Source of the DNA: Candidatus Pelagisphaera phototrophica
GTDB lineage: Bacteria; Verrucomicrobiota; Verrucomicrobiia; Opitutales; Opitutaceae
Length of the DNA: 64,000 nucleotides
Assembly (NCBI RefSeq): GCF_014529625.1
Contig: NZ_CP076039.1
Location: forward strand, 3,720,001-3,784,000
Direction of reading: 5' to 3'
The notes below the pieces were generated by a model. That model had not been told where the DNA came from, did not search any database, and saw only the letters and a program-made list of their open reading frames with translations. The position numbers were made by a program, and so were the translations under genes. Numbering within the stretch: the stretch's first letter is position 1; every line of letters starts with the position of its first letter. Positions 14,994-20,893 of the stretch are shown here, in pieces.

Positions 14994-15500
14994 TTAGACT
15001 TCCGATTCTGGTTTCCGCTCCAAAGCGTATCGATCCAATAGCAGCAGGGCATCCGGATTCCCTTGAGCCATCTTCAGTTTGTCAATCATGTCGGAAACGT
15101 TCTTTTCTTCTTCAACCTGCTCATCAACAAACCATTTCAGGAATGAAACAGTCGCAAAATCCGACTCATTCTGGGCGATCTTTTAGAGGTCGTAAATATG
15201 CCGGGTTACCTCCCTCTCCTGATCGAGACTCGCCTCAAAAACCTTAATAACCGAATCAAAATTCCATTCTGGAGCGGGAATGCTGGGAATTCGAGCGACA
15301 CCTCCACGATCGATAAGATACTGGTAGAACTTCATCGCATGCATATGCTCCTCTTCGCTCTGCAGGTGCATCCACTTTAAAAACCCATCAAACGCATTTT
15401 GCTCGAAGTAGGCTGCCATCGAAAGATAAGCGGAAGATGCCGCAAACTCTATTCCGATCTGCTCGTTTATCGCTTTTTCCAGCTCAGTGCTAATGTCCAT
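14994..15500 (-). pseudogene. ferritin gene interrupted by an in-frame stop
   Basis: Ferritin stores iron in a 24-subunit shell. The frame opens at 15500 with 105 ferritin residues, including the diiron ligands Glu18 and the ExxH motif at 51-54 (SEEEHMHAMKFY). A TAA at 15185-15183 follows HIYDL. Translation resumes in the same frame right after the stop with KIAQNESDFATVSFLKWF, VDEQVEEEKNVSDMIDKL and an ordinary ferritin C terminus ending at 14994. With the stop read as one residue the protein would be 168 residues, the normal length. The stop removes the last ferroxidase helix. It may be a true nonsense mutation or a sequencing error. Confidence 0.85.
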
Positions 15501-15524: not shown

Positions 15525-16730
15525 TCAATGGTTCAACCTGAAACCTTCTCCCAAGTCATTTATCACTTCGGTCTTCTGAATCGTTCTCTTCGCGGTCCAG
15601 GCATAAGGGCATTGCTCTCTAAAGGGAGGTACGCTCGGCATGGACAATCGTTGATAAGCAGGTCCTTCCGCGAGCATTTTCATCGTGGGAGCAAGATCCG
15701 CACCGGCACCCGTGACTCGCAGCTTCTGCCCCTCTCCCTCAAAACAAAGCCCAAACAATGTTGGGCCTAGGTCGAGCAGCGAGATGAGCAATGGATCACG
15801 ACGGGAATCTGGGAAAAATTTCGGCCAAGAAAACAGTAAAGGAACTCTGACCGACTCCTCGTGGGGCCAGCCTTTTCGGAACTGCCCATGAGAACCATGC
15901 ATGTCCCCATGAGCTGAGGTAAAAACGAACACGGTATTCGGCCAATCCGTATTCTCCTTCAAGAAGGAAACGAGCCTTCCAATGGCTCGATCAGTCGCCT
16001 CGATATGAGCGTAATAGCCCGATAGTTCCTCCCTCGCAATGGAGCGAATTTCGAAACCGTCCGGAACCTCCTCGGGAAGAATCAACGATTCGGGGTCAAT
16101 GGGACTCACTCCTGAAGCAGCCTCTCTGTAGGGGGGATGCGGGGCATCCAGACTCACAAAAGCAAACACGGGTTTATCGCAATTTCGCTCTTCTAAATAA
16201 TTTCTGCAAAGATCCACAACCACATCAGACTGGTAGCCCTCTATTTTCTTTGGAGGTCCAATTTTGGACCCATGATAATACCCGTCATTGAGTAGAAACC
16301 CCGATTCAAACCCTTCCCAATAGGAGAAACCACCTCTCCGGTTCTCAGGGACTTCAACTAGCGCATGTTCAATACCCACTACGGGAGCCTTTCGATCTCT
16401 CTCGAAAAGCTGCCACTTGCCGAAGAACGCAGTGTCATATCCTTTATCCTGATACAAATTCGCCAAGGTCTGGGCATTCTCTGGTAAGGGGTCATAGTAA
16501 CCGGCGATTCCATTGTCAGGACAAGCGATACCAGTCAGAAAGGCAGCCCTTGCAAAAACGCCAAAAGGGTGAGGCGTGACCGCTTGAAAAAAGTCAATCG
16601 ACTCTTCTGCCAATGAGTCGAGAAAGGGAGTACTCGCATTACCGTCCCCACCATACCCTGTAGATTGAGCTCTCCACTGAGTGGTCATAACTACCACTAC
16701 ATTCGGATTCCTGTTCTGAGAGCTCATCAA
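15525..16730 (-). CDS. sulfatase-fold protein lacking catalytic residues
   Basis: The 401-residue protein follows the sulfatase (alkaline phosphatase superfamily) fold from end to end: PNVVVVM at the N terminus, STPFLDSLAEES, RAAFLTG, FFGKWQLFE, PHPPY and FTSAHGDMHGSHG. The key residues are altered. The formylglycine Cys/Ser of the CxPSR motif is Gly57 (GVFAR). The N-terminal metal Asp is Thr17 (MTTQWR). The His of GKWH is Gln107. The metal Asp of TSDHGD is Ala. The frame is otherwise intact. It has no signal peptide and lies divergent from the GNAT gene. It is probably a pseudoenzyme or an early decaying gene; sulfatase activity is not expected. Confidence 0.8.
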   Translation of the reverse strand: MMSSQNRNPNVVVVMTTQWRAQSTGYGGDGNASTPFLDSLAEESIDFFQAVTPHPFGVFARAAFLTGIACPDNGIAGYYDPLPENAQTLANLYQDKGYDTAFFGKWQLFERDRKAPVVGIEHALVEVPENRRGGFSYWEGFESGFLLNDGYYHGSKIGPPKKIEGYQSDVVVDLCRNYLEERNCDKPVFAFVSLDAPHPPYREAASGVSPIDPESLILPEEVPDGFEIRSIAREELSGYYAHIEATDRAIGRLVSFLKENTDWPNTVFVFTSAHGDMHGSHGQFRKGWPHEESVRVPLLFSWPKFFPDSRRDPLLISLLDLGPTLFGLCFEGEGQKLRVTGAGADLAPTMKMLAEGPAYQRLSMPSVPPFREQCPYAWTAKRTIQKTEVINDLGEGFRLNH

Positions 16731-17712: not shown

Positions 17713-19170
17713 CTAACGCAGATCACTGGGCAATGAGTCGTAGCGATTTTTCAGCGACTGAATCGTAGCTTTGAACTGTTCGCTAGAAAACCCAGCTCCC
17801 AAAGAGAGTTTTTCATTCCCCATCAAATTATCGACAAGGAGACAGTACCGACTATCTACCATAATTCCAAGAAGCTCACCCGTTTTGGAAAACACAAGAT
17901 CTCCTTTTGTAGGAGAGAAGTCCCCGAATATACGGCTAAAAATCTTTGATTGCATTCTGACATATCCGGGAGTTCGCGCATCAAGTTTGAATTCGACTTC
18001 ACCGTAGTAACTTCCTTTTTCGTCAATCAAAACGGCTTCGGAAAACTTGAAAGGATCCAGAGCTGTATAAAAAATTTCCCCCCCGAGAACACCCACTTGA
18101 TCATCCGTTAACGGGACACTCGCTATTCGTGGATCCAATGCCAGAAAAGTCAATTGCGAAGGATTGAGCCGGGCTACTCCACGATTCATTTCGATTTCCA
18201 GCTCTCTAAAGCCAAGCGAGCTATTGCTTGCCCCCAATGGTGTGCTGCTAAGGTGGGTCAAAGCGAATACGCTTTTCCCATCCGAAATCAATAGCGTCAT
18301 CGCCAAATTATCATCCTGGATCGATTCTCCTCGGTAAAACCGATTAGACTTAAATATGAGCGCGATTTTGTTCTCGTTAAACCGGGAGAACAGGATGTTC
18401 GCATTAATGGGTTGGCTTGAGCGAAACTCTTCCGTCAAATCCTGCGATCGCTCCGCCAACTGGGTGATACCCTCCGCCATTTGCGTTGTTTGAGCTTGAA
18501 GCTGCAGTCTTTCGGTTCTCTCCGCGACCACTTCGCTTTTCAATGTCTCTACACTTTCTGCCAGCATCTTTTTCTGCTCTTCAGTCACAGATACCTTGAT
18601 ACTCAATTCCTGTACTTTTGCCTCCGCTTCCTTGCGTTCAAGTTCCTCTCTGGCCAAGGCCGCAAGTTTCGCATCAATCTCCCTCTGCTTTTCTTCCAGC
18701 TCCGCTTGGAGCATACGGGCCTGGGCTTCCATTTGCTTCGATTTCAATTCGAGATCTTCGTAACTGTTTTCTAACGTTTCAATGGATTGCTTCGCTTTCA
18801 GCGCCTCCGCTTCGATCGCCATCTTCTCTTGGGCAAGCGTTTCCTCTCGTGTTTGGGCTTCCTGGATGCTGGTTTCCAAATCCATGATGGAAGATTCCTT
18901 TTCCTGCAGCTTTTGATCCCTCAATTCCAGCTCCTTTCGCACCTTGTCCGCTTCCGATTCCAATGTGTTTTGGATCGTCTTTTCTTCTTCCAAAGCCGAC
19001 GCTAGCGTATCCAGGAGGTCTTGCTCCATCATCGCCATCGCTGAAATGCTTTGGTCTGCCGTATCCTCGATGTCAGAGCTGCTACTCTCAGCCTCCTCCT
19101 CCCAGTTTACAAGGGAAAGCAGAGTGAGAAGCAGAAAATCGCAAAGTATCAATAGCAGAGTCTTGTTCAT
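17713..19170 (-). CDS. MotB/TolR-like coiled-coil protein with degenerate protease-like C-terminal domain
   Basis: The 485-residue protein begins with a single membrane helix, MNKTLLLILCDFLLLTLLSLV, with an Asp at residue 11 in the place where MotB, ExbD and TolR carry their ion-binding Asp. A long acidic coiled coil follows (about residues 50-260). A folded C-terminal domain (about 265-480) ends with PTKGDLVFSKTGELLGIMV, which resembles the GDSGGP region of trypsin-like proteases but without the catalytic Ser. The gene starts 13 bases after the TolQ/MotA-like gene. I read the two as one motor-like unit; the function is unknown. Confidence 0.65.
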   Translation of the reverse strand: MNKTLLLILCDFLLLTLLSLVNWEEEAESSSSDIEDTADQSISAMAMMEQDLLDTLASALEEEKTIQNTLESEADKVRKELELRDQKLQEKESSIMDLETSIQEAQTREETLAQEKMAIEAEALKAKQSIETLENSYEDLELKSKQMEAQARMLQAELEEKQREIDAKLAALAREELERKEAEAKVQELSIKVSVTEEQKKMLAESVETLKSEVVAERTERLQLQAQTTQMAEGITQLAERSQDLTEEFRSSQPINANILFSRFNENKIALIFKSNRFYRGESIQDDNLAMTLLISDGKSVFALTHLSSTPLGASNSSLGFRELEIEMNRGVARLNPSQLTFLALDPRIASVPLTDDQVGVLGGEIFYTALDPFKFSEAVLIDEKGSYYGEVEFKLDARTPGYVRMQSKIFSRIFGDFSPTKGDLVFSKTGELLGIMVDSRYCLLVDNLMGNEKLSLGAGFSSEQFKATIQSLKNRYDSLPSDLR

Positions 19171-19183
19171 AGGAACTATCCGT

Positions 19184-20893
19184 CTATGCCTTTAAGCTCA
19201 AAGACGCAATGCGCTCTTGGCTATCCATAATGAGCTTATTTTTATAGGGTCGCACCAATCGTATTTTCACAATGGCTACGCCTAGTATTCCAAAAAGATT
19301 CGACGAGTAAGCCGCGATTAGATTCGCTTCAATCAGCCCCAGCACTTGCAGGACCAAAGATATGCAGGTTCCCGCAATTCCAACGTAAAGACCCGAATCA
19401 AACAGATTCTCCTCGTTCTCCATCAACCTCAGCTTAACGAGCGAGTCGATATCCTCCCTTTCGATCTGCCTCACCTTTAACAAGCAAATAAGGAAAACCA
19501 ATATTTGCAGTATGAAAAAGAAAGACACAGATAGCAGTGTTGTAGGTTCCATGGATGTGGTAGGTTCAGTTTCGATAATTATAGTTTCGCCATTAACTTC
19601 AGCGAGTACCGGTAATACAAATTTAAAGGAGTAGCCTTGAGACGCGTCGCTCCTAGCCAAATGAGGCTCGCTAAGAACCACGAGAATGATAACCGAAACT
19701 AGCGACACAAACAATCTTTGCACAACGCTCAATAGAGGCGGGCTAGATTCCCGATAACTTCGAGTCAAAACGCTCGATCCCCAGAACGCTAACAAGGCCC
19801 CAAAAAAGAACAGAGAATATTTAAGAACTAAGGAGAAACCTGGATTCTGTAGGCTGAATCCAATCAAGTAGGATTTAAAAGAAGAAACCGCGGCTACACT
19901 TTTTGCACGCTCCAGGGGCAGTTTTTCTCGAACCAACATCTGCATAGCTCCCACCCCAAAGGAAACCGCCGATTCAAGTGCTTCAACCCCTTCATCCCCA
20001 TACAACCCCAAATAGTCCATGACCTGTTGGGGCGATTCTGCTACGGTCGAAGACACAAAAATGAGAGGGACCTTGTCGGATCTGCGATGAAAAGCGTACC
20101 TCAGTCGTGATATCGTATTCAAATCTTGAATTTTTTCGAAAAGCGACCTAAACTGACTCCAGTTTAGAGTTCGAGCTAGCGATAATGTATCGAGGAAAAA
20201 GTCTTCCACTGGAGCGACATCCCCTGAAGCCAGAGCCGAAGCTAAGCGACTTCTTAATTCCCGTTTAAGAGAAGGGGTCAATCGGTCTCCCTGAACCAGC
20301 AACCCTATAGATACAAGAGTCGATTCAAGCGGTTTTCCGGAAACGCTCGAAACCGGGAACAGTCGCTTATAAGTACTCAATTCACCTGCATCCAAAAGAG
20401 ATTTGACTGTAGAATCTCGGGAATTCTCGAGCAACCCAACGAGAGACCTACGGCAAGCATTGGACAACCCAACTCCTAGAATTCCAGGCTGAGCCGAGTA
20501 ATCAGACAAGGGTATATCTTTTAGGGCTGCATCCAAGAAAGGATCCCAAACTCCCCAGCGGTACAATACAGGGCTCTCCTCTTTCGCTTGGCTCAGAATC
20601 TCGTCGAGCACCTCCCATTCGGCTGCCAGATTCAATTTCGCCACCTCAAGGTTCATTTCAGCGATTCCGTAATTCTCTTCTTCGATGGCTGTCTGGGCCA
20701 AATCAACAAAGGACTCTGATCGGGCTCCCGCCTCAGACAGTATTGAGCGAGGTATTGACTTGAATCTCGAAGGAATCATCCAGCCCACTCCAATAATCGA
20801 TAGACCCAAGACCAGCAAAACAAGGTGTCCTAAGATCTTCCCGCGATTACTGTAATTTAGGAGCGTCATTAATAATATCGCCAATTCTCCCAT
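19184..20893 (-). CDS. TolQ/MotA-like membrane protein with large extracytoplasmic domain
   Basis: The 569-residue protein has one N-terminal membrane helix (about 22-42) and a helical soluble domain of about 280 residues. The C-terminal part has five hydrophobic segments. The last two (GLYVGIAGTCISLVLQVLGL and LIAAYSSNLFGILGVAIVKI, followed by RPYKNKL) match the paired helices of the TolQ/ExbB/MotA family, where they form the ion channel with the TolR/MotB Asp helix. It is transcribed directly before the MotB-like gene and divergently from def. The soluble domain (about residues 45-330) is not recognised. Confidence 0.65.
   Translation of the reverse strand: MGELAILLMTLLNYSNRGKILGHLVLLVLGLSIIGVGWMIPSRFKSIPRSILSEAGARSESFVDLAQTAIEEENYGIAEMNLEVAKLNLAAEWEVLDEILSQAKEESPVLYRWGVWDPFLDAALKDIPLSDYSAQPGILGVGLSNACRRSLVGLLENSRDSTVKSLLDAGELSTYKRLFPVSSVSGKPLESTLVSIGLLVQGDRLTPSLKRELRSRLASALASGDVAPVEDFFLDTLSLARTLNWSQFRSLFEKIQDLNTISRLRYAFHRRSDKVPLIFVSSTVAESPQQVMDYLGLYGDEGVEALESAVSFGVGAMQMLVREKLPLERAKSVAAVSSFKSYLIGFSLQNPGFSLVLKYSLFFFGALLAFWGSSVLTRSYRESSPPLLSVVQRLFVSLVSVIILVVLSEPHLARSDASQGYSFKFVLPVLAEVNGETIIIETEPTTSMEPTTLLSVSFFFILQILVFLICLLKVRQIEREDIDSLVKLRLMENEENLFDSGLYVGIAGTCISLVLQVLGLIEANLIAAYSSNLFGILGVAIVKIRLVRPYKNKLIMDSQERIASLSLKA

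Follow-up and report, generated by a model that had tools for sequence, protein, structure and literature searches.

The window, a stretch of 64,000 nucleotides from Candidatus Pelagisphaera phototrophica, contains a gene whose predicted product resembles a sulfatase but lacks residues that are essential for sulfatase catalysis. The initial annotation proposed either a pseudoenzyme or a gene in the first stage of decay, and the question raised by the locus is which of the two readings holds. The gene is located as follows:

15525 to 16730, minus strand: pseudosulfatase gene, 401 codons including the TTG, with a possible ATG start at 16727

Reading of the DNA indicated that the frame is uninterrupted through all 401 codons. 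As the TTG of codon 1 is followed by an ATG at codon 2, the true start may be the ATG at 16727, which would give a protein of 400 amino acids. A promoter scan found no sigma-70-like site between 15000 and 17000, a result that carries little information.

The window protein scored 144 bits against the Pfam Sulfatase model (PF00884), for which the cut-off is 25, and AlphaFold2 prediction on 55 aligned members gave a mean pLDDT of 91.5 and a pTM of 0.93. The solved structures that matched best were sulfatases: Foldseek returned 6j66, a chondroitin sulfate 4-O-endosulfatase (E 8.6e-30), and VIA-align returned 2qzu, YidJ of Bacteroides fragilis (Z 43.6, rmsd 2.8, 393 aligned), with 6j66 at a Z of 42.1. 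The likeness to these S1 sulfatases extends over the whole fold and includes the GKW, PH, HGD, and K motifs, the Arg of CxPxR, and the basic sulfate cage, but the window protein is shorter, lacks the formylglycine Cys/Ser and both acidic metal ligands, and has no export leader. With regard to export, strand 1 of the predicted protein starts at residue 10, which leaves no room for an N-terminal leader; this judgement applies to the window protein alone, and the starts of other members are uncertain. We conclude that the protein has the fold of the sulfatase/alkaline phosphatase superfamily and that the scaffold is intact over 401 residues, as had been claimed.

A scan of genome contigs found 195 relatives, of which the best 80 loci were kept. 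Loci L001 to L054 are 40 to 96% identical to the window protein, have Gly at the Cys position, and have no Asp at positions 17 and 273 where these are covered (L002 is truncated and does not cover position 17); their titles are Opitutales, Opitutaceae, Opitutia, Pelagicoccus, Puniceicoccaceae, or Verrucomicrobia. Loci L055 to L080 are 34 to 40% identical to the window protein, and the normal Asp/Cys/Asp combination is found in 26 of 26. With L063 left out because it groups elsewhere in the tree, the latter loci make up an active-type sister subfamily of the PLCCPxRG type, which has the same motif set, occurs in several phyla (L064 and L069 are titled Opitutaceae), and keeps Asp/Cys/Asp in 25 of 25. 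Thus, the situation in which close homologues are normal and this copy alone is degraded was not encountered, and the replacements of the Cys and Asp residues, being common to the relatives, are no accident of a single copy.

Residues were counted in two sets. The first, A1, comprises the window protein and L001 to L054 (55 rows) and was taken down the match list at a clear E-value gap after the residues had been seen; the second comprises 68 rows, window included, grouped by Gly at position 57. As that grouping makes a count of 68 of 68 Gly circular, conservation of Gly57 is given as 55 of 55 in A1 and by a tree split obtained without column 57, and counts at the other positions of the 68-row set are independent of the grouping criterion. 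Fragments or broken frames (L126, L127, L139, L140, and L142) and L158, a duplicate of L112, were left out of the larger set, and since L064 and L138 are identical and some loci may share one genome, the 68 rows are not 68 independent genomes. The positions of the old active site are as follows:

16680 to 16682, minus strand: Thr17 codon (ACT), replaces the first metal Asp; Thr in 65 and Ser in 2 of 67 covered rows, Asp in 25/25 of the sister
16569 to 16571, minus strand: His54 codon, clade specific, three residues before the lost nucleophile; 67/68 rows, 0/25 in the sister
16560 to 16562, minus strand: Gly57 codon (GGC), replaces the formylglycine Cys/Ser; Gly in 55/55 rows of A1, Cys in 25/25 of the sister
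16548 to 16550, minus strand: Arg61 codon, retained Arg of CxPxR; 68/68
16416 to 16418, minus strand: Lys105 codon (GKW), retained; 68/68
16410 to 16412, minus strand: Gln107 codon (CAG), replaces the GKWH His, a lineage variant only; His 48, Gln 17, and Gly 3 of 68
16137 to 16139, minus strand: His198 codon (PHPPY), retained; 68/68
15912 to 15914, minus strand: Ala273 codon (GCT), replaces the metal Asp of SDHGD; Val in 55 and Ala in 13 of 68, Asp in 25/25 of the sister
15909 to 15911, minus strand: His274 codon, retained metal-ligand position; 68/68
15873 to 15875, minus strand: Lys286 codon (FRKGWP), retained; 68/68

The residue calls of the initial annotation, T17, G57, Q107, and A273, were all borne out by the DNA, but two of the conclusions drawn from them needed narrowing. 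Gln107 is present in the window but is not a family-wide loss, as His is the commonest residue at that position, and the statement that the metal residues are missing holds for two of the four metal-ligand positions, 17 and 273, whereas at the other two, Q18 and H274, the protein matches the active sister group. Throughout the group, the position of the formylglycine Cys/Ser is occupied by Gly, and no Asp is found at 17 in the 67 covered rows or at 273 in the 68 rows. The basic sulfate-binding residues (Arg, Lys, His, and Lys) are all present as R61, K105, H198, and K286, and these four together with H274 are invariant in the 68 Gly57 rows; from sulfatase structures, we take the five to be sulfate-cage or metal-site residues. 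Further clade-specific positions are W288, P199, and Q167, each conserved in 68 of 68, and 16 further distinct genomes, some of which may repeat genomes already counted, have T17, G57, and V273 with the same basic residues. The Cys, Arg, and metal positions of the window protein agree with those in the SulfAtlas survey, in which Asp13 and Asp317 of Pseudomonas aeruginosa AtsA are acidic metal ligands conserved at 96% and 99%, respectively (PMC5066984). As a control within the host, Asp/Cys/Asp was kept in all 36 distinct sulfatase-fold paralogues compared, a sample that leans toward canonical sulfatases because it was picked as best matches (30 to PF00884 and 9 to the window protein after itself, with 3 repeats).

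In a tree of 101 rows, made by a quick method with seven active-site columns removed, one branch separates the 68 Gly57 rows from the 33 Cys rows (SH-aLRT 100), and its length is 1.08 changes per column. The tree supports a single loss of the catalytic residues, which would have happened in an old ancestor of the group. Pairwise dN/dS ratios by NG86 and YN00 ranged from 0.07 to 0.28. The ratios were 0.17 (NG86) and 0.26 (YN00) for the window and L001, 0.22 and 0.26 for the window and L002, 0.19 and 0.28 for L001 and L002, and 0.10 for L008 and L009; those for the window and L003 (0.083) and for L004 and L006 (0.07) are rough because dS was saturated (above 2) in pairs with L003 and in the latter pair. 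Nine pairs were tried in all, and NG86 gave no dS for the window with L004 or with L006. The check that had been proposed for the locus, namely, that the substitutions be conserved (G57 in 55/55, T65/S2 at 17, and V55/A13 at 273) and the gene be under purifying selection, therefore came out in favor of a maintained protein.

Essential catalytic residues are lost from a fold that is kept, according to the alignments, the AlphaFold2 model, and the structure matches, and the loss is common to different species in a gene under purifying selection. We conclude, with a probability of about 0.93, that the gene encodes a maintained, family-wide pseudoenzyme, that is, a non-sulfatase of the S1 (formylglycine) sulfatase fold, the inactivity of which is predicted from its residues. 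Of the two readings left side by side by the initial annotation, the pseudoenzyme is thus favored by the shared substitutions, the apparent single old origin, and purifying selection, and early decay is not.

The profile of the group matched 227 of the 250 sampled genomes of the host's GTDB family at E<=1e-90; among the good genomes the count was 161 of 165, all 49 genera were represented, and the gene was nearly always present as a single copy. Some strong matches, with E below 1e-141, were assigned to the pseudo type on score alone, active-type proteins having reached at most 321 bits. Inspection of weak or missing cases in 20 genomes corrected the count to about 162 of the 165 good family genomes. 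In G340, the match was an active-type paralogue and no pseudo-type copy was present, while in G330 the pseudo type was present just above the E threshold; G434 held only a pseudo-type fragment, and no pseudo-type copy was found in G329 or G351 at E<=1e-40. Most split matches in the inspected genomes were continuous frames with an inserted stretch, but the frame is broken in the assemblies of G306 and G353. Given the genomes with no copy, a fragment, or a broken frame, the gene is not strictly indispensable. Separately, the family genome G295, which has 7% contamination, has two deep-branching copies, L125 and L143, both with the pseudo residues.

Outside the family, the same threshold of E<=1e-90 left no match to the group profile among 238 genomes of the order. 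The DNA pattern of the changed Asp, S[V/A]HGDMHG, was matched exactly and thus gives lower bounds: it occurs in 214 of the 250 genomes of the family (152 of the 165 good ones) and, across the phylum, in 36 of 387, every one of them a family member. By contrast, the active-type sister, which forms a sister branch in the tree, is patchy: its own profile found it in 4 of 250 family genomes, against 227 for the pseudo profile, and did not find it in the host at E<=1e-150. The near-universal retention of the pseudosulfatase suggests a core function.

Presence of the gene is not tied to the number of sulfatases. The host genome (G000, one 4.09-Mb contig) has at least 151 PF00884 matches, a count for which 150 of 238 candidates were scored. 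The analysis also covered six family genomes that have few sulfatase candidates (G066, G207, G272, G080, G181, and G358), in which the pseudosulfatase itself scored 102 to 123 bits. In two of them, G207 (97% complete) and G066 (100%), it was the only PF00884 match and its pseudo residues were confirmed; the other four genomes had 2, 3, 6, and 6 matches. No match to the family of the formylglycine-generating enzyme (FGE) was found in G207 or G272, and G066 had two FGE-family matches despite having no other PF00884 match. In the host genome, there were four FGE-family matches, one with internal stops.

The role that we consider most likely is that of a sensor or regulator in which the retained Arg/Lys/His cage binds an anionic ligand, a proposal for which and against which we judge the odds to be even. 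With the nucleophile and both acidic metal ligands replaced throughout the group and the basic sulfate cage unchanged, the pocket would no longer bind Ca2+ and could not form a sulfo-enzyme ester. The protein would stay in the cytosol, where the uncompensated cage may hold, but not hydrolyze, either a free sulfate or phosphate ion or a metabolite that bears one of these groups. A protein partner might then read out occupancy of the pocket, and the pseudosulfatase would in this way sense or regulate some part of core physiology that is separate from the degradation of sulfated glycans.

Alternatively, the pocket could have no ligand, and the protein could be a pure structural scaffold or protein-interaction module in which conservation reflects the fold. 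Sites conserved at 97% or more are concentrated around the old active site: they make up 36 of 60 positions in motif windows chosen by the analyst and 44 of 262 outside these windows (odds ratio, 7.4). The active sister leans the same way, though less strongly (27 of 60 inside and 43 of 262 outside; odds ratio, 4.2), so that part of the pocket conservation may be fold constraint. Loss of the catalytic residues also fits a scaffold, but invariance of R61, K105, H198, H274, and K286 does not, as the acidic residues that balanced them are gone, and we regard this alternative as unlikely. The same conservation of the motif windows could instead indicate a re-tooled enzyme with a new chemistry that requires neither formylglycine nor calcium, perhaps by way of Thr17, the new His54, and the retained His, Lys, and Arg residues, or with another metal coordinated by His54, His274, and His278. 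The clade-specific positions His54 (67/68), Thr17 (65/67), W288, P199, and Q167 fit a new chemistry, but the nucleophile has no substitute, its position being Gly in all of A1, and the two acidic metal ligands have given way to Thr or Ser and to Val or Ala; we consider a re-tooled enzyme about as improbable as the scaffold.

A role beside active sulfatases, as a noncatalytic prozyme, chaperone, or competitor in the degradation of sulfated polysaccharides, would be permitted by the fold similarity, which could allow heterodimers, and by the abundance of PF00884 matches in the host. Such a role is highly doubtful, as the window protein has no export leader and the pseudosulfatase stands as the sole sulfatase-family match in two near-complete genomes of the six sulfatase-poor ones, one of them (G207) without an FGE match. 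The latter observation, together with family-wide retention and the low dN/dS, also argues against decay in this lineage by missense changes that have not yet been joined by a frame lesion. Replacement of the catalytic residues in the window copy and the broken copies in G306 and G353 are what decay might leave, but the same replacements are found across the group, the tree is consistent with their having arisen once, long ago, dN/dS is well below 1, and the gene is kept in almost every good family genome. As the close homologues carry the same substitutions, we consider the decay reading refuted and its probability negligible. Finally, a broader proposal is that the gene product is a core, family-defining protein in which the active site was rebuilt once into a new functional site, either as an anion sensor central to physiology or as a new metal-free or His-metal enzyme, and that it is kept even in genomes for which no other sulfatase and, in one case, no FGE was detected. 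That proposal is speculative, and we think it more probable that it is wrong than right.

The use of a member of this superfamily in regulation has a precedent in YejM/PbgA/LapC, an enterobacterial regulator with an alkaline-phosphatase-superfamily domain, and pseudoenzymes are known in many enzyme classes. YejM/PbgA/LapC differs, however, in being membrane anchored, and the window protein fails its NCBIfam model, NF038282 (21.9 bits; cut-off, 825). Among sulfatases, the SulfAtlas survey reports nine sequences from Lentisphaerae and Planctomycetes that are perhaps inactive, as Ile or Leu stands in for a positively charged residue of the signature (PMC5066984). Those sequences appear to have lost the Arg position, whereas the window protein keeps the Arg and lost the Cys and both Asp residues, and, unlike that set as described there, the pseudosulfatase is a gene kept across a bacterial family. 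Searches of the open-licence literature, not all of which were on the exact question, found no paper on a clade-wide bacterial pseudosulfatase. As the PF00884 scores are far above the cut-off in the window and in the other genomes scored, automatic annotation likely counts the gene as a sulfatase, even in genomes where the search turned up no further sulfatase, and such miscounting would distort tallies of sulfated-polysaccharide degraders in this group. Moreover, the clear pattern of a lost nucleophile and lost acidic residues beside an invariant basic cage makes binding testable in a simple way.

The neighborhood of the gene in the window consists, in order, of two uncharacterized genes, a GNAT acetyltransferase gene on the other strand, the pseudosulfatase gene, a ferritin gene, and flagellar genes. 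The GNAT acetyltransferase and ferritin genes were assigned by Pfam; the flagellar genes are presumably flgB, flgC, fliE, and fliF, and a gene further upstream is one we take to encode peptide deformylase. A similar order was found in related marine genomes, with an flgB-like cluster in 11 loci, and in 17 loci the downstream side has a hybrid histidine kinase gene (Pfam) on the opposite strand. The neighbors of interest are:

15183 to 15500, minus strand: ferritin-like gene, in-frame stop after 105 codons, with ferritin-like sequence beyond the stop
17713 to 19170, minus strand: gene for a 485-amino-acid protein, no Pfam match; short N-terminal hydrophobic stretch with an invariant Asp11, a coiled coil, and a conserved C-terminal part
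19184 to 20893, minus strand: gene for a 569-amino-acid probable membrane protein, no Pfam match; in 142 of 273 genomes of the order

Among the 36 loci, window included, for which 4.5 kb or more of upstream sequence was available, 21 had the upstream pair; in 7 loci, the nearer gene was on the same strand and within 200 bases. Profile searches of the pair against the PDB returned nothing beyond coiled-coil and weak matches. The pair was considered as an obligate partner and rejected, as the 569-amino-acid gene gave no match at E<=1e-20 in 6 of the 35 family genomes carrying the pseudosulfatase but did match in 113 of the 238 genomes of the order that lack the pseudosulfatase. In G240, a genome of the same genus, the 569-amino-acid gene occurs only in pieces with stops. 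A conserved gene for a probable membrane protein with no Pfam match (L024:5036-5917 and relatives) lies upstream in 13 of 55 loci and is often beside a methyltransferase gene. The stop in the ferritin-like gene may be either a true lesion or an assembly error; ferritin copies are 168 to 170 amino acids long in L002, L003, L004, L005, L008, L010, and L054 and 113 amino acids long in L009.
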